NCBI GenBank assembly: GCA_016935595.1
Contig: JAFGQQ010000134.1
Coordinates: 1-12,263, forward strand
Source: Bacteroidales bacterium
GTDB lineage: Bacteria > Bacteroidota > Bacteroidia > Bacteroidales > UBA10428
Direction of reading: 5' to 3'
DNA length: 12,263 nucleotides
Each line of letters begins with the position of its first letter. Positions within the stretch are counted from its first letter, which is position 1. The position numbers and the translations under genes are program-made. The notes beneath the pieces were generated by a model. That model was not told the origin of the DNA. It worked only from the letters and a program-made list of their open reading frames with translations, and made no database searches. Shown here one piece after another: positions 2 to 11,607 of this stretch.

Positions 2-499
2 GGTGGATTTTTAAATAGTTTGTATTACGATAATAATTTTGACGGCCTTAATGAATTTATTGGGGAAGGCGGGAATCCGAATTATTGGATTACATGGAGC
101 GCAAAGAATGGTGCACAATGGTACATGAACAATGGTATATCGACAAAACTTGTAAATGGCAGTTTTTTTGGATGCACATATACCGATTTTAACCCGGCTT
201 TAGCTCCAAATACACCGGTTGCTGCCATAAAATATGAAGATATTCCTTATTTAGTCAGTAAAAATGAAATAACAGCATATACTATTTATCCCAACCCATG
301 TAACGATTATATTAAAATTCAAAATGAAAATTCCGTAAATATTGATAAAATAATATTGACAGATATTTTTGGTAAATTGATTGTTAGCATGGATGGCTAT
401 AATGGTTCTTCAATTGATGTTTCGATGTTGAATAGTGGTGTTTACTTTTTACAAATTAAATCTGGTAATGAAATAAAAGTGGTAAAACTTGTTAAATAG
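2..499 (+). CDS. T9SS-exported surface protein, C-terminal part (5' truncated)
   Basis: The frame is open from the first full codon at position 2. The first possible start, TTG at 20, lies inside a conserved-looking stretch, so the real start is upstream of the window. About 165 residues are visible. The first part is rich in aromatic residues and glycine, with spaced tryptophans (NYWITW, then AQW) followed by NGSFFG and TDFNPALAP. I recall this pattern from exported proteins encoded beside btuB in Bacteroidota and from some PEP-CTERM proteins; it loosely resembles DUF4430/transcobalamin-C-type domains, which is only a guess. The last 80 or so residues are a T9SS type A sorting domain: YPNP at nt 287-298, then a GVYFLQI strand and a basic end (KVVKLVK). 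The product should be secreted or anchored on the cell surface. It lies first in the visible operon, 71 bases before the next gene. A role in corrinoid capture is inferred from position only. Confidence 0.75.
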   Translation, partial: GGFLNSLYYDNNFDGLNEFIGEGGNPNYWITWSAKNGAQWYMNNGISTKLVNGSFFGCTYTDFNPALAPNTPVAAIKYEDIPYLVSKNEITAYTIYPNPCNDYIKIQNENSVNIDKIILTDIFGKLIVSMDGYNGSSIDVSMLNSGVYFLQIKSGNEIKVVKLVK

Positions 500-570: not shown

Positions 571-1557
571 ATGAGAAGAATACTATCTATATTGTTTTTT
601 TTATTCTTAGCTAATAGAAGTTTATTTTCGCAATTTGCCCCGGCTGTTGACGAAGAAGGTTCAGATGCAATATCCAAGGATAGTATGGCTGTCGTTGAGT
701 GGGCCATTACATGCAGTGTTCAACGTGGATACATTGATATTTCTGATAAATCGCTTGGATATGTTAGTTATGGCGCTTACGAATCGGGAATTGGAAAAGC
801 TGATGGAATTGATGTAGTAAGTTTGGGTGATAGTGGCATTGCAATTTTATCGTTTCAAAATCCTGTCACGAATCATGAAGGCCCTGATATTGCTGTTTTT
901 GAAAACAGTTTCAATAATACCTTTCTTGAATTGGCCTTTGTCGAAGTAAGTTATGACAGCATCCAGTATTACAGGTTTCCACCTGTTTCTAACAGCCTGG
1001 TAGCAGAGCAGATAAGCTCATTTGGTGAAATTGATGCAACCTGTATTTATAATCTGGCAGGTAAATACAAAGCTAATTATGGAACACCTTTCGATCTTGA
1101 GGAATTAAAAGATACTCTTGGTATTTATATTGACAGCATAAGGTTTGTGAAAATTATTGATGTAACTGGCTGTATTGATGACGAATACGCTCAGTATGAT
1201 TCAAAAGGAAATAAGGTAAACGATCCCTGGCCAACAGCATTTGAATCGGGTGGTTTTGATTTGGATGCCGTTGCCATTGTAAATTGCGAACAAGACTTAA
1301 ATTCAAATCCTGTTGATATAAATACTTTTGGAGAAATTTTTGTTCAGGCATTTCCGAATCCTATAGAAGATTATCTTACAATCCGGTTACAAGAGGCTGC
1401 AAATGTTTCAATCTATACCCTCGATGGAAAAAAAATTATGAAAACATACTTTACGAAAGGAAATAATACGATTAATTCTTCAGCATTTTTTCGCGGTATT
1501 TATTTAATCAAAATAGAAACCCAAGATAAAATATACATTAAAAAAATCATTAAATAG
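571..1557 (+). CDS. T9SS-exported 'cell surface protein' family member
   Basis: This 328-residue protein has a signal peptide (residues 1-20, ending LFS before QF) and a T9SS type A sorting domain (about 254-328; FPNP at 261-264, GIYLIKI at 309-315, basic end KKIIK). The central domain has motifs I recognise from a family usually labelled only 'cell surface protein': VVSLGDSGIAILSF (82-95), GPDIAVFENSF (104-114), ELAFVEVSYDS (120-130), YYRFP (133-137) and GGFDLDAVAIVN (227-238). Members are often encoded beside BtuB-like receptors. The conserved acidic residues could bind metal, but no enzymatic motif is visible and no biochemical role is known to me. The ATG at 571 is chosen because it gives a complete signal peptide. 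The gene ends 8 bases before the receptor gene, so they are probably co-transcribed. I infer that it helps capture corrinoids or corrinoid-carrying proteins at the surface. Confidence 0.8.
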   Translation: MRRILSILFFLFLANRSLFSQFAPAVDEEGSDAISKDSMAVVEWAITCSVQRGYIDISDKSLGYVSYGAYESGIGKADGIDVVSLGDSGIAILSFQNPVTNHEGPDIAVFENSFNNTFLELAFVEVSYDSIQYYRFPPVSNSLVAEQISSFGEIDATCIYNLAGKYKANYGTPFDLEELKDTLGIYIDSIRFVKIIDVTGCIDDEYAQYDSKGNKVNDPWPTAFESGGFDLDAVAIVNCEQDLNSNPVDINTFGEIFVQAFPNPIEDYLTIRLQEAANVSIYTLDGKKIMKTYFTKGNNTINSSAFFRGIYLIKIETQDKIYIKKIIK

Positions 1558-1565
1558 ATATTAAT

Positions 1566-3476
1566 ATGAGCATTAAAACAGAATTAAAGATTATTGTCAA
1601 CTTTTTTGTGCTGTTAATAATGCTAACAGAATATTTAAAAGCAGATAATGTGCTTGATTCTGTTTTAATTGAAGAAGTTAAGATTGTAAAAACCAATATT
1701 AACCAGGTTGCCGGGTTTAAAAGTTATGTGATTGACTCCCTTGTTATGAAAGAATCTTTGAGTTCTGATTTATCAGAAGTATTGGCAAACCATTCCCCTG
1801 TATATATAAAAGCCTATGTAAACGGGGGTCTTTCAACATCTTCATTTCGGGGAAGTGGTGCAAACCACACCCAGGTAACATGGAACGGCATTATAGTTAA
1901 TAATCCAATGTTAGGACAGGTCGATTTTTCGCTGTTTCCCATATTTTTTTCCGATAAAATAGAACTGAACATGGGGGCTGCTTCCATTGAAAACAACACC
2001 GGGGCAATTGGAGGTAACATTAATCTTGTAAACCTTCCCGACTGGAAAAATAAACTAGCAGTAACTTTTACCGAAGATATTGGCAATATTGGATCAACAC
2101 ATTCCAATTTTTCATTTCAAAAAGGGAACAGTAAATTTCAATCTAAAAGTAAACTTATTTACTATTGCTCCGAAAATGACTATAGCTATTATAATACTGA
2201 ATCGTTAAACAATACCAAAATTGAAAAAAGAAAATTTGCCGATTATGGCGGTTCTGGGTTCTTACAAGAGTTTTATGGCCGGTTTAATGACAATAATTTT
2301 CTTTCGGTTAAAATATTGGGCCAGTTGAGCCGTCGTTCTATTCCTCCGCCGCTTACCATAAAAAGGGAAATAAATAACGAAACACAGGAAAACAATAATT
2401 TATGGTCGGTTTTAAAATATGTAAATTATAAAGGTCAGCGAAAAATTTCATATTCATTTTCTTATTTAATCGACCAATATAATTATAATAATATTCTTTC
2501 ATCAGTAAATACATCAAACCGATGTCAATCTTTTTTAAATAAAGCCGATATTTCTTTTACCAATAATTTTATATTTAATGCCGGCCTGTCCAATTCGGTT
2601 TACTTAATTAATACCGAAAGTTATTTAGAAAATAAAAACCGTGCTGTTACGGCAGTGTATGTTTCTGTAAAAAAAGAATTTAACCAAAGGTTAGCAATAT
2701 ATTCACTAATTCGGGAAGAATTGCTTAATTCTGGCATATTTTCGCCATTATTGCCCTCGTTTGGTGTTGATTTCAGAATAATAAAAAACAAGGGCTTTTT
2801 TATTAAATATAACATATCTAAAAATATTCATTATCCAACTTTTAATGATTTATATTGGTTGCCGGGAGGAAATCCTTACCTCGAAAATGAAGAAGGATTG
2901 TTAAATGAAATTTGTTTATCGGGATATGAACTTGATTTGTTTAGCCTTTTTACAGCCGAAGCGAATATTTCTGGATATTATTCCAATATTTCGAACCGGA
3001 TTATATGGCTGCCAAATAATTATGGACTTTGGGAGGCATGTAATTACGACATGTTGGTTTCGAAGGGGTTTGAAGGAAATTTGAAAATTTCTAAATTAAA
3101 AGGGAAATTAAATTGGACATTTATCATGGATTATTCATTTTGTATTTCGGAAGATAGAGAAGAAAAATTGCAGTTGATTTATGTCCCTAAAAATCAATTG
3201 GGTATTATTTCAAGGGTGTCTTATAAAGACTATTACCTGAATTATAATTTTTCCTATATCGATAAAAGATATATTACTTCTGATCATACCTGGCATTTGC
3301 CTCCGTATTGGGTGAGTGGCCTCTCAGTTGGTAAAACCTTTAATTTTTTGAAATATTCACTTAGTTTGCAGGCCAAAGCCGATAACCTGTTTAATAAAGA
3401 TTATCAGTCTGTTGCCTATCAGCCCGCACCAAAACGAAATTATCATATAATTATAAATTTTAAATTCAATAAATAG
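1566..3476 (+). CDS. btuB: TonB-dependent outer-membrane receptor, BtuB-like
   Basis: This 636-residue protein has an N-terminal signal peptide ending near residue 26. A DSVLIEEVKIVK segment (31-42) is the usual Bacteroidota lead-in to the plug. The plug covers about 45-155, with the conserved LSEVLANHSPVYIKAYVNG (69-87), SSFRGSGANHTQVTWNGI (92-109) and GAIGGNINL (146-154). A 22-strand barrel should follow, closing with NLFNKDYQ (607-614) and a final strand in the family's AYQPAPKRNYHI style. The length is short for Bacteroidota receptors but normal for BtuB. There is no N-terminal carboxypeptidase-regulatory-like domain, and no SusD partner gene is nearby, which argues against a SusC-type glycan importer. 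The last residues are FKFNK rather than the usual terminal aromatic. Corrinoid as substrate is inferred from the neighbouring BtuG-, BtuF-, BtuC- and BtuD-like genes. The next gene begins one base after the stop. Confidence 0.85.
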   Translation: MSIKTELKIIVNFFVLLIMLTEYLKADNVLDSVLIEEVKIVKTNINQVAGFKSYVIDSLVMKESLSSDLSEVLANHSPVYIKAYVNGGLSTSSFRGSGANHTQVTWNGIIVNNPMLGQVDFSLFPIFFSDKIELNMGAASIENNTGAIGGNINLVNLPDWKNKLAVTFTEDIGNIGSTHSNFSFQKGNSKFQSKSKLIYYCSENDYSYYNTESLNNTKIEKRKFADYGGSGFLQEFYGRFNDNNFLSVKILGQLSRRSIPPPLTIKREINNETQENNNLWSVLKYVNYKGQRKISYSFSYLIDQYNYNNILSSVNTSNRCQSFLNKADISFTNNFIFNAGLSNSVYLINTESYLENKNRAVTAVYVSVKKEFNQRLAIYSLIREELLNSGIFSPLLPSFGVDFRIIKNKGFFIKYNISKNIHYPTFNDLYWLPGGNPYLENEEGLLNEICLSGYELDLFSLFTAEANISGYYSNISNRIIWLPNNYGLWEACNYDMLVSKGFEGNLKISKLKGKLNWTFIMDYSFCISEDREEKLQLIYVPKNQLGIISRVSYKDYYLNYNFSYIDKRYITSDHTWHLPPYWVSGLSVGKTFNFLKYSLSLQAKADNLFNKDYQSVAYQPAPKRNYHIIINFKFNK

Positions 3477-3477
3477 T

Positions 3478-4557
3478 TTGAAAAAGATTAAAATCCATAT
3501 AAAGCTTTTGATTTTAATAGTAATGGTAGTATTATTTTCCTGTTCCGAAAAAAACGAGATAGGGCCTGTTTACGAACATTTTCCTGTTGTTTCATCGGGA
3601 AATCATGGTGTTTTTATTATTAATGAAGGTCTTTTTAATTTTAACCTTGCCTCTTTGTCTTTTTATAATACCGATAGCTGTGTTATTAGTAACGGTATTT
3701 TTTTTCATAAAAACCACAAAACACTTGGCGATTTAGCCCAGTCGATTTTTGTCAATGATTCATTAACTTATATTGTAGTTAATAATTCCGGTAAAATTGA
3801 AGTGATTAATACCAATACTTGTAAATCTGTGGCTACCATTTTTGGGTTCCAATCGCCCAGGTATGTATATCCTATAAGTAATGAAAGTGCTGTGGTTTCT
3901 GATTTGAAATCTGATTATTTAACAATTATTAGTTTAAAAGAGCACAAAATTACCGGTGAGATTTATCTTGGAAACGCATCGGAATGTGTATTAAAATATG
4001 GTACATTTGTTTTTTCAGCGTTTTGGTCGAACATAAATTTTACCAATTTAAAAAACAACATTATTAATGTGGTTGATTGCAACAAACTGGAAGTAATTAA
4101 AAATATTGAAGTCGGTACCGAACCTAACAGTATGGTTATTGACAAGGCATACAATTTATGGGTTTTATGCAGTGGGGGATATACAAATAAAGATAGTGCA
4201 AAACTTTTTAAAATCGATACAGAGCTGCTTATGGTTGACAGAATGTTTACATTTAAGGATTTTGAGGCTTACCCCTCGCGGCTTTCTGCTAATGGGAGAG
4301 GAGATACGCTTTATTATATTAATAATGGTATTTTTCGAATGTCAATTTATGATGAAGAACTTCCCGAAAATGAGTTTATTAAAAATACAGGCATAAGTTA
4401 TTATGGATTAGGTATAAATCCTGAAAATAGCGATGTATATATTGCCGATGCTTTAACTTATCAGCAAGAAGGAATGGTGTTCCGTTATAGTTCAAAAGGA
4501 GTTTTAATCGATTCTTTCGAAGTTGGGGTGATTCCTTCAGCATTTGCTTTTAAGTAA
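3478..4557 (+). CDS. btuG: BtuG-like surface lipoprotein, YncE/DUF5074-type beta-propeller
   Basis: This 359-residue lipoprotein has a lysine-rich, hydrophobic signal ending in the lipobox LFSC, with the acylated cysteine at residue 22. The TTG at 3478 is chosen because the only nearby in-frame ATG (codon 16) would leave too short a signal; TTG follows the btuB stop by one base. The mature protein is repetitive and beta-rich, as in a propeller: GVFIINEG (44-51), ASLSFYNTDS (58-67), GDLAQSIFVND (84-94), VVNNSGKIEVI (100-110), and later blades including EVGTEPNSMVID and a final VGVIPSAFAF. These match the DUF5074/YncE-like family to which Bacteroides BtuG belongs. BtuG binds cobalamin very tightly on the cell surface and passes it to BtuB. 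Acidic residues soon after the cysteine (SEKNE) may favour surface export but are not a clear export signal. Position directly after btuB supports the assignment. Confidence 0.8.
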   Translation: MKKIKIHIKLLILIVMVVLFSCSEKNEIGPVYEHFPVVSSGNHGVFIINEGLFNFNLASLSFYNTDSCVISNGIFFHKNHKTLGDLAQSIFVNDSLTYIVVNNSGKIEVINTNTCKSVATIFGFQSPRYVYPISNESAVVSDLKSDYLTIISLKEHKITGEIYLGNASECVLKYGTFVFSAFWSNINFTNLKNNIINVVDCNKLEVIKNIEVGTEPNSMVIDKAYNLWVLCSGGYTNKDSAKLFKIDTELLMVDRMFTFKDFEAYPSRLSANGRGDTLYYINNGIFRMSIYDEELPENEFIKNTGISYYGLGINPENSDVYIADALTYQQEGMVFRYSSKGVLIDSFEVGVIPSAFAFK

Positions 4558-4593: not shown

Positions 4594-6756
4594 ATGCATA
4601 GAATTATCAGTTTTATACCTTTATTAGCAATTAGTCTTATATCAAATGCCCAGATAAGTTATGGAGGTTTGCCTTTTTCAAGATTATTATCGATGTCACA
4701 GGATTCAGTTCCTGTTATTGATATGCCTGCTTTAAGTGTGAATGAACTTAAAACTGCAGAAGTTAATAGATATAAATCAATGGTATTTGCCAAAGCATTC
4801 GATACAGAAATTAATCCGGGTAATTCGGGAATATGGAAAATGCAGACTGATGGAACTAAGATATGGCGTGTGGGAATTCGTTCCGAAAATGCATACTCAA
4901 TTATTCTTTTATTTCATCCTTTTTATTTACCTGAGGGTGCAAAACTTTTTGTTCATAATTCAGATTATTCTAAAATATTAGGGGCTTATAATTGTAAAAA
5001 CAATTCAGGCTCAAAAACTTTAACAATAGAACCATTGCCCGGAGAAATAGCATATATTGAATTAATTTTGCCACCCGGCTGTAAAAAAAGCTATTCATTA
5101 AATTTGCAGCATGTTGGCCATGGGTTATTAAAAGATTATGATAAAAACAGGGTTGATATACTGGGGCTTGGTAAATGCCATCCCGATGTTAACTGCAGCC
5201 TTGCATCTGACTGGAAAGACGTTCAAAATTCGGTTTTTTATTACATCCATTATAATTATCTTGAAAGGGAGTTTAAGTATTGTAATGGCACATTAATTAA
5301 TAATACAAGGTTAAACAGTCATCCTTATTTTTTTTCTGCCAGTCATTGTGTTTGGGATGATAAAACTGCCGAAAGTGTTGTGGCCTTTTTTAATTATGAA
5401 AGCCGCTATTGCGATGGCCCTGAATTACCTCAGACAAAAAGTATATCAGGTGCAAATTTTATTGCTGCAGTTGATAATCTTGATTTTGTTTTATGTGAGT
5501 TTAGGACTTTACCGCCATTTTTATTTAAACCTTATTTTGCCGGGTGGAACAGGAAAGATGAAACCATAAAAAACGTTGTTGCTATTCACCATCCGGCCGA
5601 TTATGACAATATTTATCCAAAAAAAGTAGCATACGATTATGATGAACTTACAATTGCTACTTTTAGCGACGAATATGATGAAAATTCGCATTTTTTAGTT
5701 AGTAAATGGGATATAGGAACTACTGAAAATGGTTCTTCAGGAAGCCCTGTGTTCGACCAAAATAAGCGAATTGCAGGAGACCTTACCGGGGGCGATGCAG
5801 ACTGCATGTCGCCAATGAATGATTATTACACCCGTTTTTCAGTTGCATGGGATAGTTATCCTGATAAAAACAATCAGCTTAAATACTGGCTCGATCCTGA
5901 TAATACCGGGCTTATGGTTTTAGATGGTTTAGACCCATATCAATTATTTAAAGATAGTTGTGATACTATAAATGCAGTTAATTCAACTCCGCTGCTAATC
6001 TCTTATAACGGTAATAACGGTTATTGGACAGGGCATAATTCCGACTCAATACGTTATTATGCCCAACATTTCGATGGAAATGTAAATAATACCATTACAG
6101 CAGTTTATTTTAATGTTGCATATGCAAGGCCTGGCAGCGACGAATCGTTTATTGGCCTTATGCTGTGGGCTGACAATAATGGTGAACCTGGTGCAGTAAT
6201 TTCAAAAAAGAAATATTTAATTTCTGACTTAAAGGAAAATGCTGTAAATTATCTGGAATTTGATTCCCTTGTTTTTGTCAAAAATGACTTTTACATTGGT
6301 TTTCAGGTTTTTTATCAATCTCCTTCAGATACATTTGCTTTGTACCAATCAAATGCGGTTGCATCAGAACCGGATAATTTTTATTTATATAAAAATGATT
6401 GGCAAAACATTCGCGATTATACAACCGGAACGTTAACCGGGGCATTGGATATTAAGGTAGTCCGGTGTGATTCTATACTATCATACAAAAAAGATAACCC
6501 TGTTAGCGGGGAATTAATATTTAATGTTTATCCTAATCCGGCTAATTCCTTTGTTGTTTTGGATTTACAAGAAAGCAACCATGAAAACCTCGAACTAAAC
6601 ATTTATAATGTATCTGGAAAACTAATGAAAAAAAATATTACGCCAATATCATATCAGCAATACAATTTAAATATTACTAATTACCTGCCGGGAATATATT
6701 TTCTTTCAATAAAAACAGAAAAAACACAAAAGGTCGTAAAATTTGTTGTTTACTAA
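4594..6756 (+). CDS. T9SS-exported serine protease, lysyl endopeptidase type (family S1)
   Basis: This 720-residue precursor contains a signal peptide (1-20, SNAQ), a pro-region or beta-domain (about 21-190), a trypsin-fold protease (about 191-448), a beta-sandwich-like region (about 465-625) and a T9SS type A sorting domain (YPNP 646-649, GIYFLSIK 700-707). Triad residues are visible: His251 in FFSASHC, Asp297 in DNLDFVL and Ser382 in ENGSSGSPVF. From memory of Achromobacter protease I, six cysteines match its three disulfides (195, 201, 230, 252, 273, 404), as do AGWNRKD, IHHP and WLDPDNTG...DGLD. Asp410 falls where that enzyme's lysine-selecting Asp225 lies, while its His210 is Thr398 here. 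An active protease cleaving after lysine or another basic residue is therefore likely. It starts 36 bases after the btuG-like gene and ends 4 bases before btuF. Its role in the operon is unknown; releasing corrinoids from carrier proteins is one possibility. Confidence 0.85.
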   Translation: MHRIISFIPLLAISLISNAQISYGGLPFSRLLSMSQDSVPVIDMPALSVNELKTAEVNRYKSMVFAKAFDTEINPGNSGIWKMQTDGTKIWRVGIRSENAYSIILLFHPFYLPEGAKLFVHNSDYSKILGAYNCKNNSGSKTLTIEPLPGEIAYIELILPPGCKKSYSLNLQHVGHGLLKDYDKNRVDILGLGKCHPDVNCSLASDWKDVQNSVFYYIHYNYLEREFKYCNGTLINNTRLNSHPYFFSASHCVWDDKTAESVVAFFNYESRYCDGPELPQTKSISGANFIAAVDNLDFVLCEFRTLPPFLFKPYFAGWNRKDETIKNVVAIHHPADYDNIYPKKVAYDYDELTIATFSDEYDENSHFLVSKWDIGTTENGSSGSPVFDQNKRIAGDLTGGDADCMSPMNDYYTRFSVAWDSYPDKNNQLKYWLDPDNTGLMVLDGLDPYQLFKDSCDTINAVNSTPLLISYNGNNGYWTGHNSDSIRYYAQHFDGNVNNTITAVYFNVAYARPGSDESFIGLMLWADNNGEPGAVISKKKYLISDLKENAVNYLEFDSLVFVKNDFYIGFQVFYQSPSDTFALYQSNAVASEPDNFYLYKNDWQNIRDYTTGTLTGALDIKVVRCDSILSYKKDNPVSGELIFNVYPNPANSFVVLDLQESNHENLELNIYNVSGKLMKKNITPISYQQYNLNITNYLPGIYFLSIKTEKTQKVVKFVVY

Positions 6757-6760
6757 TAGG

Positions 6761-7909
6761 ATGAAACCATCGTTTGTATTTTATATTATACTTTATTTTA
6801 TTCTGCTTAATGGTTGTAAAATTAAATCAGGTGATGGTTTGAAAAATTTTTCAACCGAACAGTATAATAAGCCGGTTTATGCAAAAGGTTATGAATATTT
6901 TAAATTTGGCGGGATAACACATATCCGGATTTTTAACCCCTGGCAAAAAGCCGAAAACGTTATGTTAAATTATGCCATAATTGATGCGGATAATGAAAAT
7001 ATTAAACTTCCGGATGACTATTTTGTAATTAAAAAACCAATAAACCGTTTGGTTTGTCTTTCAACTACACATATTGGATTTTTATCAGCCATAGACGAAC
7101 TTGATAAAGTTGTGGGAATGTCTGGTTCCCAATATGTTAATAATTCTTTTCTTGCAAAACAGGTTTTAACAAAACAAGTGAAAGAGGTGGGCTATGAACA
7201 AAGCCTTAATTATGAAATGATAATACATTTGAAGCCGGATATTATTTTTGCGTATAGTGTCGGGAATGAAAATATCGGATATTTCAGAAAATTTCAGGAA
7301 ATAGGCATTCCTGTGTTATACATAGCTGAATACCTCGAGGATGATCCATTAGGTAAACTGGAATGGATTAAAGTTGTTGCTGAACTTTTTGATAAAAGAG
7401 ACATGGCTTTTCAATATTTTTCTGATGTTGAAAAAAAATATTTAATGTTAAAACAAATTGGCAGTGAGGTAGAACAGAGGCCAAATGTTTTAGTGGGTTT
7501 GCCATGGAAAGGGACATGGTTTGTTCCCGGAGGTAATTCTTACCTTGCAAATCTGATAAAAGATGCCGGGGCTAATTATTTGTGGAGTGATTTAATCAGC
7601 AATAAAAGTGAACCAATGAGCCTTGAATCGGTGTTTCAGAAAGGGCAATTGGCCAGCTATTGGATTAATTGTGGCAGCGCCGATTCTGTTAATCAAATTT
7701 TAGGTGTTGATGAAAGAATAAAGGATTTTCCGGTTTTTAAATCGGGGAATATATATAACCATAATGCCCGTATTAATGAATTCGGAGGAATGGATTACTG
7801 GGAGTCTGGCGTTATAAACCCACATATAATTTTAAATGATTTAATTAAAATATTTCATCCTGAATTAAATACTGGACATAAATTGTTTTATTATAAAAAG
7901 CTTAAATAA
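6761..7909 (+). CDS. btuF: BtuF/FecB-like ABC substrate-binding lipoprotein
   Basis: The ATG at 6761 gives 382 residues and a clean lipoprotein signal with lipobox LNGC (Cys19). An in-frame TTG at 6743 would only add six residues overlapping the protease gene and is less likely. After a 70-residue N-terminal extension comes a cluster A/class III type binding fold: PINRLVCLSTTHIGFLSAI (93-111), VGMSG (118-122), EVGYEQSLNYEMIIHLKPD (142-160), then the helix region with LGKLEWIKVVAELFDKRD (197-214), VPGGNSYLANLIKDAGANY (255-273) and a C-terminal lobe ending ESGVINPHIILNDLI (348-362). The family binds cobalamin, haem or ferric siderophores; the BtuG-like neighbour favours corrinoid. It would sit on a periplasmic face and deliver substrate to the permease, whose gene starts 3 bases after its stop. 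Confidence 0.85.
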   Translation: MKPSFVFYIILYFILLNGCKIKSGDGLKNFSTEQYNKPVYAKGYEYFKFGGITHIRIFNPWQKAENVMLNYAIIDADNENIKLPDDYFVIKKPINRLVCLSTTHIGFLSAIDELDKVVGMSGSQYVNNSFLAKQVLTKQVKEVGYEQSLNYEMIIHLKPDIIFAYSVGNENIGYFRKFQEIGIPVLYIAEYLEDDPLGKLEWIKVVAELFDKRDMAFQYFSDVEKKYLMLKQIGSEVEQRPNVLVGLPWKGTWFVPGGNSYLANLIKDAGANYLWSDLISNKSEPMSLESVFQKGQLASYWINCGSADSVNQILGVDERIKDFPVFKSGNIYNHNARINEFGGMDYWESGVINPHIILNDLIKIFHPELNTGHKLFYYKKLK

Positions 7910-7912
7910 CCT

Positions 7913-8938
7913 TTGAAATATCGAAATAATATATTGTTTTTTTTGTTAGCAGTAATATTGGTTCTTTTGTTTTCGCTTGATGTAATATATGGATCTGTAT
8001 ATTATTCATTTAATGATGTCTTTAAAGCAATATTATATCCGGAAGAAGTTGACAGCATTGTTTATTCAACAATAATTGATTTCAGGGTGCCAAAAGCAAT
8101 AACTGCATTATTGGTTGGCGTTGGTCTTTCGTTGAGTGGGTTGTTAATGCAAACGGTTTTTCGTAATCCATTAGCCGGCCCATACGTTTTAGGAATCAGC
8201 TCTGGCGCTTCGCTTGGAGTTGCGTTGGTTGTTTTAGGTATTTCGCCTTTTTTTGCTAATACTTCATTTCAAATAATAGAAAATACTTCAATTGTATTGG
8301 CAGCCATTTTAGGCTCTTATCTGGTACTTTTTTTAATACTTTTAGTATCTGTGCGGATTAAAGACGTTATGACAATACTAATTTTAGGAATTTTATTTGG
8401 AAGCGCTATTTCTTCAATTGTAAATGTTTTAGAGTATTTCAGCAAAGAAACACTTTTAAAGGCATATGTGATATGGACAATGGGTAGTTTGGCCGATGTT
8501 ACAAAAAGTCAGCTTGTTTTTTTAGCTACACTGGTTGTTTTTGGGGCATTTTTAGCATTATTATCTTCTAAAACCCTGAATGCATTTTTATTAGGTGAAA
8601 ACTATGCCAAAAGCATGGGGGTTAATTTAATTGGTTCGAGAATATTAATATTTTTATCTGCAGGGATAATGACAGGGACTACTACTGCTTTTTGCGGCCC
8701 TGTTGGTTTTATTGGAATTATTGTGCCCCATATTACACGAATGGTTTTTAAAACAGCCAATCATTTTATTTTAATTCCTGGTTCAGCTCTTATTGGTTCA
8801 ATAGTAATGCTGGCCAGCGACCTGGTGTCTCAACTTCCCGGGACCGGACTTAATTTACCAATTAATTCAGTTACTGCAATTATTGGGATTCCTGTTTTGA
8901 TATGGATAATATTTAAACGAAAAAAAATTACTTCCTGA
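7913..8938 (+). CDS. btuC: BtuC/FecCD-family ABC permease
   Basis: This 341-residue integral membrane protein has the family's normal length and many hydrophobic segments, consistent with about ten transmembrane helices. Diagnostic stretches are FRVPKAITALLVGVGLSLSG (57-76), MQTVFRNPLAGPYVLGIS (79-96), GENYAKSMGV (228-237), the cytoplasmic coupling region GPVGFIGIIVPHITRM (262-277), and the C-terminal LPINSVTAIIGIPVLIWII (315-333). The start is the TTG at 7913, three bases after the btuF stop, because it includes the whole first membrane helix; it has the same TTTGAAA context as the btuG-like gene start. Two copies would form the inner-membrane channel that pairs with the ATPase encoded 5 bases downstream. 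Family members carry cobalamin, haem or iron-siderophores, so the substrate comes from context. Confidence 0.9.
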   Translation: MKYRNNILFFLLAVILVLLFSLDVIYGSVYYSFNDVFKAILYPEEVDSIVYSTIIDFRVPKAITALLVGVGLSLSGLLMQTVFRNPLAGPYVLGISSGASLGVALVVLGISPFFANTSFQIIENTSIVLAAILGSYLVLFLILLVSVRIKDVMTILILGILFGSAISSIVNVLEYFSKETLLKAYVIWTMGSLADVTKSQLVFLATLVVFGAFLALLSSKTLNAFLLGENYAKSMGVNLIGSRILIFLSAGIMTGTTTAFCGPVGFIGIIVPHITRMVFKTANHFILIPGSALIGSIVMLASDLVSQLPGTGLNLPINSVTAIIGIPVLIWIIFKRKKITS

Positions 8939-8943
8939 GAATT

Positions 8944-9960
8944 ATGCCTGATAATGATATTATATTGAAAACCAATAATCTGGAAATCGGATATTTTCAT
9001 CATAATAAGAAATTGCCTGTTTTTTCTCATATATCTTTAACAGCAAGAAGAGGGGAACTAATATCTTTAATTGGCAGAAATGGTTCAGGAAAAAGCACCC
9101 TGTTAAAAAGTATTGTGAGGATTAATAAAATATTAGGTGGCGATATACTTCTTGAAGGGCAATCAATATATAATTATAAACTTAAAGAATGGGCAAAAAA
9201 AATTGCTTTTGTTTCCACTGAACCTTTAACTGTTTCAAATTTAGCGGTTAAGGAACTGGTTACACTGGGAAGGCACCCCTATACTAACTGGATGTTTTAT
9301 TTAACTGATAAGGATAATGAGATAATAGAAGAAGCTATTAGCCTGGTTAAAATCAATCACCTTGCATCTAAAAATATTGATGAAATTAGCGATGGAGAGA
9401 GACAACGCGCTATGATTGCAAGAGCGCTTGCTCAAAATTCCCAGGTAATTCTTTTAGATGAACCAACAGCCTATCTTGATCTTCCGAATAAATATGAAAT
9501 TATTCATTTATTGCACGATCTCGCACGAAATGAACAAAAAACAATAATTTTTTCAAGCCATGACCTGAATATATCAATTGGTGAAGCCGATAAACTGTGG
9601 CTTATGGATAAAGATATTACATTAGAAGGGGCTCCTGAAGATATTATATTAAATGGTACATTTAGCCACATATTTGATAATTCAATTGTTTGTTTTGATT
9701 CTAATACTGGCGAAATTAAATTAACCCGTTCAATTAAAAAAGAAGTTTATCTTGAAGGTGAAGAGAAACCTTATTTATGGACAAAAAGGGCGTTAGAAAG
9801 AACAGGTTATATAATAACTAAAAATCAAAATAATGCAATTAAAATCAACATTACCCGCCAAGCAAACGAATTAAAATGGAATATTACAATTAATGGTATA
9901 AATAAGGTTTTTAATTCAATTTACGACTTAAATGTGTATTTAAAATTGACGAAAGATTAA
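8944..9960 (+). CDS. btuD: BtuD/FecE-like ABC transporter ATPase with C-terminal extension
   Basis: This is the cytoplasmic ATPase partner of the permease, 338 residues long. Walker A is GRNGSGKST (44-52), the signature is ISDGERQR (148-155, in place of the usual LSGGQ), Walker B is VILLDEP (168-174), the D-loop is AYLDL (176-180) and the H-loop histidine is 206 in SSHD. The canonical Q-loop glutamine is not evident: the site reads FVSTEPLTVSNL (89-100). I recall similar substitutions in Bacteroidota FecE-like ATPases, so this need not mean loss of activity. Beyond about residue 250 there is an extra domain of some 85 residues (GYIITKNQNNAIKINITR and an ENLKWN-like strand pattern ending VYLKL) which the enterobacterial BtuD/FecE proteins, about 250-260 residues long, lack. 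It is the last gene of the operon; the ATG at 8944 lies 5 bases after the btuC stop. Confidence 0.88.
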   Translation: MPDNDIILKTNNLEIGYFHHNKKLPVFSHISLTARRGELISLIGRNGSGKSTLLKSIVRINKILGGDILLEGQSIYNYKLKEWAKKIAFVSTEPLTVSNLAVKELVTLGRHPYTNWMFYLTDKDNEIIEEAISLVKINHLASKNIDEISDGERQRAMIARALAQNSQVILLDEPTAYLDLPNKYEIIHLLHDLARNEQKTIIFSSHDLNISIGEADKLWLMDKDITLEGAPEDIILNGTFSHIFDNSIVCFDSNTGEIKLTRSIKKEVYLEGEEKPYLWTKRALERTGYIITKNQNNAIKINITRQANELKWNITINGINKVFNSIYDLNVYLKLTKD

Positions 9961-10206: not shown

Positions 10207-10208
10207 TT
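10178..10208 (-). terminator. Possible (bidirectional) terminator: AT-rich inverted repeat
   Basis: AATACTAATT (10178-10187) and AATTAGTATT (10199-10208) form a perfect 10-bp stem with an 11-base loop, placed exactly at the stop codon of the minus-strand thioredoxin gene. Read on the minus strand it is followed by TTAATCTATT, only a weak T-tract, and the stem has two G:C pairs. Position fits a terminator for that gene; the low GC content makes the call tentative. Confidence 0.4.
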
Positions 10209-11607
10209 ATTCACTAATCTCCCTTTCTAAAAAATGATTAATGTCTTCAACTCCTAAACGTTTAGCTACTATTTTTTTGTCTTTATCCAGTAGGTAAATT
10301 ACAGGAGTGCTGTAAATGTCATATAAATCCCTGAAATTTGAAATGTTGTATGGGTCATATGCATTAATAAAGACCATATTTCTTTCTTTAATTGTCTCTT
10401 CCCATTCATCCTTTTTATATTGGGTATAAACAGCAAATACTTCTAAACCATGCGATTTGTATTTTTCATACGTTTTTAAGACTTCGGGTATAACTTTTTT
10501 ACAATGCCCGCAACTTGGTTCCCAGAATAATAACACAATATATTTGGCTTTTACATCATGAAGGCTAATCCATGTGTTTTTATCTGTTACTAATTTTAAA
10601 TTGGGGGCTACATTGCCAATTAAATTAGGTTTGATTTTTGAGACCCTGTCGGCAAGTTTTGATATAAAAGAGGTGTCGGCCCATGCTGCTTTGCCCGAAA
10701 GATAATATTCTTCTCCTAAATGAACATATACAGCATCCATACCCATAATATTACTTTTTAAGAAATGGTTAAATAAGAACGATAAAGTAAATTGAAATAC
10801 AGTGCTATCTGCCTGTGATTTAATTATAACATCATCAATTATGGGAATTAAACTGTCGGGAATTTGGGGCAAAGCCGAAAAAAACTGGGTTAACTTATTT
10901 TCAATAAATGGAGTTCGTAATAAGCGGTTATCTGAAAAATCGATATTATCAAAAAAATGTGCTTTATAATAATTGTATTGAAACATGGAATCAAGAATAT
11001 TTCCGTTTTCATCTTTTGGAGGTTCCGGTATTTCAACATCTTTACTTGCTGTTAATAGTTTCGACAAAAAGTTATCCTGGTTTTCTTTTATTGTCTGTTC
11101 CATTTTGTTCATTACCATGTTGTTTAATTCATCCATTTTTTTATCAATTTCCTTAACATTTTCATCTTCTTTGTTTCCCTGAAGGTTTTTTTTCTCGTCG
11201 CGCATTGTTTTTAACTGGTTTTGCATGTCCATTAAAAAGCGCTGGTAATTATAAAAATTTTCATTTATTGATGAATTGGTGAATTTGGCATTTTGCACAT
11301 ATTCTGTTGTGTCATTCTCAAGGCTGAATTTTTGGTTATCATCAATAATAATATCAAAATAGGTTTTATTGGGTAAAAAAACGATATATAATCCACCTTT
11401 TAATTTTTCATTTCCTTTAAATATACCTTTTCCTTTGTCATCAATAAAAGTGGTATCACTAACATACAGTTTTGAACCAAAATGATAACCTAAATAAATT
11501 TCGCTATTAGCAAGATTGTTTATCTTAACTTTTATTTCATATCCTTCCGATTTTGCTGAAGATAATAAAACTATTACCAGAAAAAATGTCAATATTGTTT
11601 TGTACAT
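10207..11607 (-). CDS. Exported TlpA/ResA-like thioredoxin with DUF4369-type N-terminus
   Basis: This 466-residue protein has a signal peptide (1-20). Residues about 22-110 form a beta-rich domain typical of DUF4369 (GYEIKVKI..., GGLYIVFLPN). A charged helical segment at about 118-178 looks like coiled coil (DEKKNLQ, KEIDKKMDELNN), and an alpha-helical stretch follows, like the DUF5106-type middle region. The C-terminal thioredoxin domain (about 330-466) has the active-site motif WEPSCGHCKK with Cys366 and Cys369, and a cis-proline loop STPVIYLL (Pro435). It should act as a periplasmic or outer-envelope thiol-disulfide oxidoreductase; the direction (reducing or oxidising) and partners are not visible. 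The ATG at 11607 gives the full signal peptide. It lies 15 bases after the glycosyltransferase gene, possibly in the same transcript, and is convergent with the uptake operon. Confidence 0.85.
   Translation of the reverse strand: MYKTILTFFLVIVLLSSAKSEGYEIKVKINNLANSEIYLGYHFGSKLYVSDTTFIDDKGKGIFKGNEKLKGGLYIVFLPNKTYFDIIIDDNQKFSLENDTTEYVQNAKFTNSSINENFYNYQRFLMDMQNQLKTMRDEKKNLQGNKEDENVKEIDKKMDELNNMVMNKMEQTIKENQDNFLSKLLTASKDVEIPEPPKDENGNILDSMFQYNYYKAHFFDNIDFSDNRLLRTPFIENKLTQFFSALPQIPDSLIPIIDDVIIKSQADSTVFQFTLSFLFNHFLKSNIMGMDAVYVHLGEEYYLSGKAAWADTSFISKLADRVSKIKPNLIGNVAPNLKLVTDKNTWISLHDVKAKYIVLLFWEPSCGHCKKVIPEVLKTYEKYKSHGLEVFAVYTQYKKDEWEETIKERNMVFINAYDPYNISNFRDLYDIYSTPVIYLLDKDKKIVAKRLGVEDINHFLEREISE

Follow-up and report, generated by a model that had tools for sequence, protein, structure and literature searches.

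A lysyl-endopeptidase-type protease gene recurs in B12 uptake operons of Bacteroidota and may serve corrinoid release

Results

The protease gene lies within a B12 uptake locus

The window, by which we mean the whole stretch of 12,263 nucleotides analysed, is contig JAFGQQ010000134.1 of a Bacteroidales bacterium (assembly GCA_016935595.1). We searched its ten ORFs for Pfam and NCBIfam matches (Table 1; L numbers denote loci and G numbers genomes).

Table 1. Genes of the window
Product	Coordinates	Strand	Remarks
T9SS-tailed repeat protein, 3' end	2..499	+	Homologues directly 5' of o571 at B12 loci L202, L189, L187 and L204
o571, T9SS-tailed protein, function not assigned	571..1557	+	Family recurs beside btuB/btuG elsewhere
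BtuB-type TonB-dependent transporter	1566..3476	+	Nearest solved chains 8p98_A (named BtuB), 8p97_A and 8bmx_C
BtuG homologue, lipoprotein-type beta-propeller, DUF5074	3478..4557	+	TTG start
Lysyl-endopeptidase-type (S1) protease, 720 aa	4594..6756	+	
BtuF-like substrate-binding protein, Peripla_BP_2	6761..7909	+	ATG at 6761; ORF caller starts at TTG 6743
BtuC-like permease, FecCD	7913..8938	+	TTG start
BtuD-like ABC ATPase with C-terminal extension	8944..9960	+	
Thioredoxin-like protein (AhpC-TSA, TlpA/ResA-type)	10207..11607	-	
Glycosyltransferase fragment	in window	-	

A profile built from ten DUF5074 proteins (the window protein and those of nine related loci) matched chain 8bmx_D and similar chains (6.3e-91), which we take to be Bacteroides BtuG; in the entries themselves, the names given are YncE-family protein or surface layer protein. 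The entry of 8bmx_D also contains a BtuB-like chain, 8bmx_C, and the window transporter matched chain 8p98_A, named BtuB, at 1.6e-69. On the basis of these structure-chain matches, we read the locus as a BtuB–BtuG operon. The BtuF-, BtuC- and BtuD-like proteins are of the right families and in the right order, with scores below the NCBIfam equivalog cut-offs. Chains named BtuF were matched by the BtuF profile at ~7e-8, and other iron-complex binders matched as well or better. The truncated first protein probably belongs to the locus too, since its homologues are encoded directly 5' of o571 at some other B12 loci.

Several further features were observed. The BtuD-like ATPase extends ~80 residues beyond the match to the BtuD model, and the ATPases of related loci are similarly long (331–347 aa where complete). 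A palindrome detected by eye (ACCTGTCAGGTT ... AACCTGACAGGT, positions 511–548) lies in the gap separating o571 from the first T9SS gene. This could be a repeat element or a terminator and might mean that o571 has its own transcript start. Promoter and terminator scans of the window gave 80 hits versus 66.6 in shuffled sequence (sd 7.2; 1.9 sd above) and 10 versus 6.4 (sd 2.5; 1.4 sd above), respectively, and were not used. Matches to LhrC and tmRNA fell well short of the gathering scores and were disregarded.

Domain structure of the protease

The initial annotation described a secreted serine protease with a full triad, a T9SS sorting domain and a tight placement between btuG-like and btuF-like genes. 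The sequence bears this out. The gene begins 36 bp 3' of the BtuG homologue and ends 4 bp 5' of the BtuF-like gene. The protein has a signal peptide at residues ~1–20 (assigned by eye), a prodomain at ~21–190 and a catalytic domain at ~193–448, the latter with a chymotrypsin fold, the triad His251, Asp297 and Ser382, and Asp410 in the S1 pocket. There follow a beta-sandwich domain (~452–628), for which lectin-like folds were among the best matches, and a T9SS type A sorting domain (645–719), recognized by both the Pfam and the NCBIfam scan (Por_Secre_tail / TIGR04183). The family is large: 2183 homologues were obtained at E ≤ 1e-3 among 7993 proteins scored. The nearest full-length proteins, P0002 and P0003, share 57–58% identity.

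Asp410 is the equivalent of Asp225 of Achromobacter protease I (API) and was invariant in alignments A1, A3 and A5. An Asp at this position presumably confers a preference for lysine, and the window protease probably cuts at lysine. The position of API His210, which we take to boost activity without defining the family, is Thr398 in the window; it was mostly Thr or Ser, and never His, in 115 alignment rows. With Thr in this place, the activity of the enzyme may differ from that of API. Compared with API and Lysobacter LysC, both of them S1 lysyl endopeptidases, the window enzyme thus has Thr for His210, and it also differs in its beta-sandwich domain, its T9SS tail and its location in a B12 operon.

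Recurrence of the protease beside btu genes

When genomes were scanned with the alignment of the protease, 80 loci were retained from 107 relatives, none of them picked for its context. At 11 of these, btu genes flank the protease gene (L001–L005, L009, L026, L029, L035, L063 and L070; identity 31–39%); the other 69 relatives have no B12 link in the available flanking DNA. The gene order in the 11 loci never contradicts btuB–btuG–protease–btuF–btuC–btuD, and their gene sets are not always complete. L003 has the full set, preceded by o571, while L001 and L005 have btuF–C–D only and L029 and L070 only btuB–btuG on that side; some contigs end early.

Neighbours on the same strand within 300 bp were counted for 110 non-redundant proteases, 12 of whose loci had been chosen for a nearby btuG. 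BtuG was the neighbour at 20 loci and BtuF at 16, followed by tandem protease copies and then one family at 6 loci. Among the 80 unselected loci, the corresponding counts were BtuG 9, BtuF 6 and other family 6; the flanked loci add up to 11 because L001 has a TPR protein in between.

Two additional sets comprised high-scoring proteases without an adjoining btuG match (L241–L260) and loci chosen for a nearby btuG (L261–L272). Four of the 20 proteases in the former set sit directly 5' of btuF (L241, L244, L252 and L253). Minimal operons consisting of riboswitch, btuB, btuG and protease gene were found at L029, L261 and L264. Where btuF comes next, the distance from the protease stop to the btuF start was -3 to +14 bp at 14 of 16 loci, the exceptions being L009 (117 bp) and L267 (40 bp). 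Viral contigs were also scanned for protease relatives; six stretches matched the pattern, and none passed confirmation.

The converse survey started from btuG. The class-wide draw comprised 395 genomes, of which 332 had a BtuG-profile match; 100 regions were fetched, 98 of them with a labelled btuG. Most regions were taken down the BtuG ranking, some ranked places near the end being passed over. G161 and G191 were included outside the ranking order for a protease on the same contig, and G219 was also known to carry one. At none of the 98 class-level loci did a lysyl-endopeptidase-type protease follow btuG directly. In the regions of G161, G191 and G219 (L235–L237), the protease gene lies ~3.6 kb past btuG with two opposite-strand genes between, and these were not counted as linked. 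L163, initially taken as linked on a profile score of 72 bits, encodes a subtilase and was removed from all lysyl-endopeptidase counts.

An order-wide draw of 247 genomes included 147 with btuG at E ≤ 1e-60, at 151 places. The protease was the next same-strand match after btuG at 12 of these (G425, G445, G608, G534, G004, G440, G548, G411, G566, G551, G639 and G419), the two matches being 77–251 bp apart; the survey was centred on G004, which was known beforehand to be positive. In G529, the protease gene lies 2.8 kb downstream of btuG. At the remaining 139 btuG places, there was no scored protease match directly downstream. Since at most two protease candidates per genome were scored in the class draw and at most four in the order draw, these adjacency counts are lower bounds. 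One family is represented by five genomes: the protease gene follows btuG in G003, G004 and G566 and precedes btuF in G465, and in G643 it and btuG are on separate contigs.

Seldom seen across the class, the arrangement is regular within one part of it. Being absent from most btuG loci, the protease is an accessory component. The initial annotation had made recurrence in other btu loci one test of its proposal, and the protease was indeed found again (11 of 80 loci; 12 of 151 places).

Large TPR proteins adjoin the protease or lie between btuG and btuF at four loci (L001:12304-15435, L269:4739-7750, L178:6818-12412 and L251:10150-12879); three of the four have a weak carboxypeptidase-regulatory-like match below the cut-off. 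Downstream of B12 loci, a thioredoxin-like gene of the TlpA/ResA type is found repeatedly on the opposite strand, at a spacing of 4–10 bp in L029, L070, L261 and L264 and farther away in the window, L035, L244 and L252.

Cobalamin riboswitches precede the operons in relatives

An Rfam cobalamin riboswitch was found upstream in 18 of 21 loci that have btuB/btuG and the protease gene (L002, L003, L004, L009, L026, L029, L035, L063, L261–L266, L268–L270 and L272). The riboswitches are on the operon strand, at or upstream of the start of the first btu-type or o571-linked gene; that of L263 overlaps the start of the long ORF assigned to btuB. In L272, two genes on the other strand intervene between btuG and the protease gene, and the riboswitch of this locus may not reach the protease gene. 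In the three loci without a riboswitch (L070, L267 and L271), the contig ends inside or before the first gene. No riboswitch was found in the six protease–btuF units that have no btuB or btuG (L001, L005, L241, L244, L252 and L253); within this set, the L252 sequence starts partway through the protease gene. Nor was a riboswitch found in the window itself, where the first gene is already cut off and the operon start lies outside. By comparison with its relatives, we infer that the window operon is riboswitch-controlled. As a reading of gene context, the membership of the protease in a B12 operon is well supported.

Riboswitch-headed loci with a secreted protease would also fit an enzyme that supplies peptides or methionine when the cobalamin-dependent methionine synthase fails without B12. 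We consider such a supply role unlikely: the protease gene has uptake genes around it and in most cases lies right against btuF, and its commonest neighbours are BtuG and BtuF, although the smaller neighbour families could include a peptide-uptake partner.

Conservation and history of the linked proteases

His251, Asp297, Ser382 and Asp410 are kept in every one of the 28 linked copies, a count that includes the window and leaves out L163. Nearly all unlinked copies keep the same four residues, so their conservation demonstrates intactness and not specialisation.

A FastTree tree built on prodomain and catalytic domain together places 23 of the 28 linked copies in one group of 31 rows (local support 86). 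The other five are in a separate group of 9 rows (support 100), whose complete members are longer (863–873 aa). This topology would fit two or more linkage events, or a single ancient one followed by losses. The tree, which still contains L163 as a stray long branch, requires 8 label changes for 29 rows (L163 included) versus a shuffled mean of 26.0. In an earlier tree of full-length sequences, the linked proteases were more dispersed (9 changes for 12 rows; shuffled mean 11.5).

These data bear on the suggestion of the initial annotation that the protease might simply be a passenger, a gene of a large family that came to lie in the operon by chance. Such an origin would agree with the size of the family (2183 homologues) and with the fact that most members have no link to B12 (69 of 80). 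However, only ~0.1 adjacencies would be expected in the order survey, given at most four scored proteases per genome and ~3000 genes, against 11 found besides the centre; the genomes are related and no p-value is attached to this comparison. The conserved position, the retained catalytic residues, the split of linked proteases into two tree groups and the separate recruitment of subtilases (below) also argue against chance. Given the recurring riboswitch-headed linkage in relatives, we now regard a passenger as very improbable.

A second protease type can occupy the slot after btuG

The gene after btuG in L163 encodes a subtilase whose tail resembles that of T9SS cargo (22.6 bits, under the cut-off of 27). 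A Pfam scan of 90 proteins in this slot identified S8 peptidases in three (L163, L208 and L224) and an M36 fungalysin in one (L188, further along the run). The T9SS tails of the L208 and L224 subtilases scored above the cut-off; in L208, a DUF71-type gene sits between btuG and the subtilase gene. Nine slot proteins had been omitted from alignment A6, five of them of ≥1500 aa (including L178) and four of 1447–1450 aa (L211, L225, L229 and L231). Among these, L225 and L231 turned out to be subtilases by a three-member profile. The subtilase profile matched 5 of 121 slot ORFs versus 2 of 802 other ORFs of the same regions, both of the latter in L208 just past the slot copy; being built from slot members, the profile favours their relatives. 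Subtilases thus occupy the slot at 5 of the 98 class-level loci, all of them riboswitch-headed; L225 is cut at its 5' end. Putative triad residues, which we take to be the catalytic triad, were invariant in all five.

The order of G330 was surveyed for subtilases in 46 genomes with 45 btuG places. A subtilase was next after btuG at seven of them (G330, G371, G648, G182, G647, G309 and G645; 85–182 bp). In G662, G658 and G390, it was ~0.8 kb from btuG, and in G651 4.9 kb. The best subtilase matches (E = 0) occurred in 14 genomes, of which 11 are these near-btuG ones; the exceptions are G263, G656 and G650. Several genomes of this order may be close relatives, and independent events would then be fewer than counted. 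G309, G330, G371 and G390 were present in both the class draw and this survey.

The M36 fungalysin (L188:7454-10057) is encoded some distance after btuG in a riboswitch-headed locus and is possibly a third protease family in this role.

The protease has no constant partner among its neighbours

Members of the o571 family (571-1557 in the window; L003:5795-6823, L163:12078-13064, L178:2098-3060 and others) lie beside btuB/btuG in many B12 loci. A profile of o571 matched solved structures over the T9SS tail only. The protein may be a corrinoid-binding surface protein. DUF4465 proteins with T9SS tails (L163:13072-14055 and L235:2877-3845) presumably represent the BtuH family. Genes for diphthamide-synthase-like (DUF71) proteins come after btuG at many loci (19 of the 90 slot proteins; e.g. 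L178:6010-6702), a placement that agrees with the B12-salvage prediction named in the title of PMC3541065.

The protease might process or turn over the surface proteins of its own operon (o571, BtuG, BtuB or other T9SS cargo), for example in maturation or in shedding of BtuG with its ligand. These proteins share an operon and probably a compartment with the protease. In addition, BtuB lysines are below the expectation from GC content in linked loci (19 versus 89 loci; p 0.009, uncorrected and not phylogenetically independent). In contrast, the lysine content of BtuG was no different (21 versus 99 loci; p 0.65). No partner is constant: just 4 of the 27 linked runs or loci have a labelled o571 (L003, L268, L271 and L272), and there are the six protease–btuF units without btuB and btuG. 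The presence of a subtilase in the same slot speaks against a single precise maturation site; as judged from gene position, an unrelated protease family there favours the freeing of corrinoids over the processing of neighbours. We therefore think it improbable that the operon's own proteins are the target.

Discussion

We propose that the protease is a working part of B12 uptake, namely a surface protease induced by B12 starvation that frees protein-held corrinoids for BtuG–BtuB. To this reading we assign a marginally better than even chance. It best accounts for the B12-gene context, the riboswitch in relatives, the intact catalytic residues and the replaceability by an unrelated protease. 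We infer the surface location, expression and substrate of the enzyme.

When cobalamin is scarce, the riboswitch would let the operon be expressed. The protease would be exported by the type IX system, lose its prodomain (perhaps by a cut at lysine) and be held at the cell surface. There it would digest corrinoid-bearing proteins, for instance corrinoid enzymes set free by cell lysis, carrier proteins, or proteins with which competitors bind B12. The freed corrinoid would be caught by BtuG, passed to BtuB and carried across the inner membrane by BtuFCD.

The locus has much in common with the BtuB–BtuG operons of Bacteroides: BtuB and BtuG homologues, BtuF-C-D-like genes and, in relatives, a cobalamin riboswitch. 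It differs in its extra surface proteins, which bear T9SS tails. Bacteroides BtuG2 strips B12 from intrinsic factor with femtomolar affinity, no protease being named in that part of the account (PMC6143338). Affinity capture of this kind means that proteolysis is not obligatory. In the stretches of main text that we cite from PMC6143338 and PMC12751083, the word protease occurs only in connection with assays and inhibitors (in PMC12751083 once, for an inhibitor). A cobalamin riboswitch precedes a TonB-dependent transporter in a Flavobacterium, and no protease is named at that point of the report (PMC9723704). We found no report of a protease in B12 uptake operons among the titles and abstract starts that our searches of open-licence papers retrieved.

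PepK of Porphyromonas gingivalis is a T9SS lysyl endopeptidase; by description, it resembles the window protease in enzyme type and in T9SS export, and we know of no link between PepK and B12 genes. The gingipains of P. gingivalis belong to family C25. Together with the lipoprotein HmuY, these K/R-specific proteases take haem from haemoglobin, as described in part of PMC3040768. The gingipain–HmuY–HmuR system and the window locus have in common secreted Lys/Arg proteases with a cofactor-binding lipoprotein and a receptor. The likeness is one of analogy only: gingipains are cysteine proteases and their cargo is haem, whereas the window enzyme is a serine protease and its presumed cargo a corrinoid. 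With HmuY and the gingipains as a precedent in the same phylum, corrinoid release beside BtuG–BtuB appears probable.

B. thetaiotaomicron carries B12-binding lipoproteins on vesicles, according to part of PMC12751083, and these would be a source of protein-bound B12. The protease might thus be mainly a weapon that destroys cobamide-binding proteins or vesicles released by other Bacteroidota. Such a role would be a special case of corrinoid release and is hard to tell apart from it; as the main function, we hold it to be quite unlikely.

More broadly, Bacteroidota may have a proteolytic branch of B12 acquisition, in which riboswitch-controlled surface proteases, separately recruited from at least two unrelated families (S1 and S8; possibly M36 in one locus), would digest corrinoid carriers beside BtuG–BtuB. 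We see the case for this generalization as evenly balanced. If corrinoid release is indeed the function of the protease, protein-bound corrinoid would be a real source of B12 in natural communities and a contested resource. The sharing of and competition for B12 are usually described as small-molecule capture by affinity. A surface protease under starvation control would link cell lysis to B12 supply and would be a B12 counterpart to protease-based haem piracy. It would also provide a group of proteases, named in databases only by their T9SS tail, with a function that can be tested.
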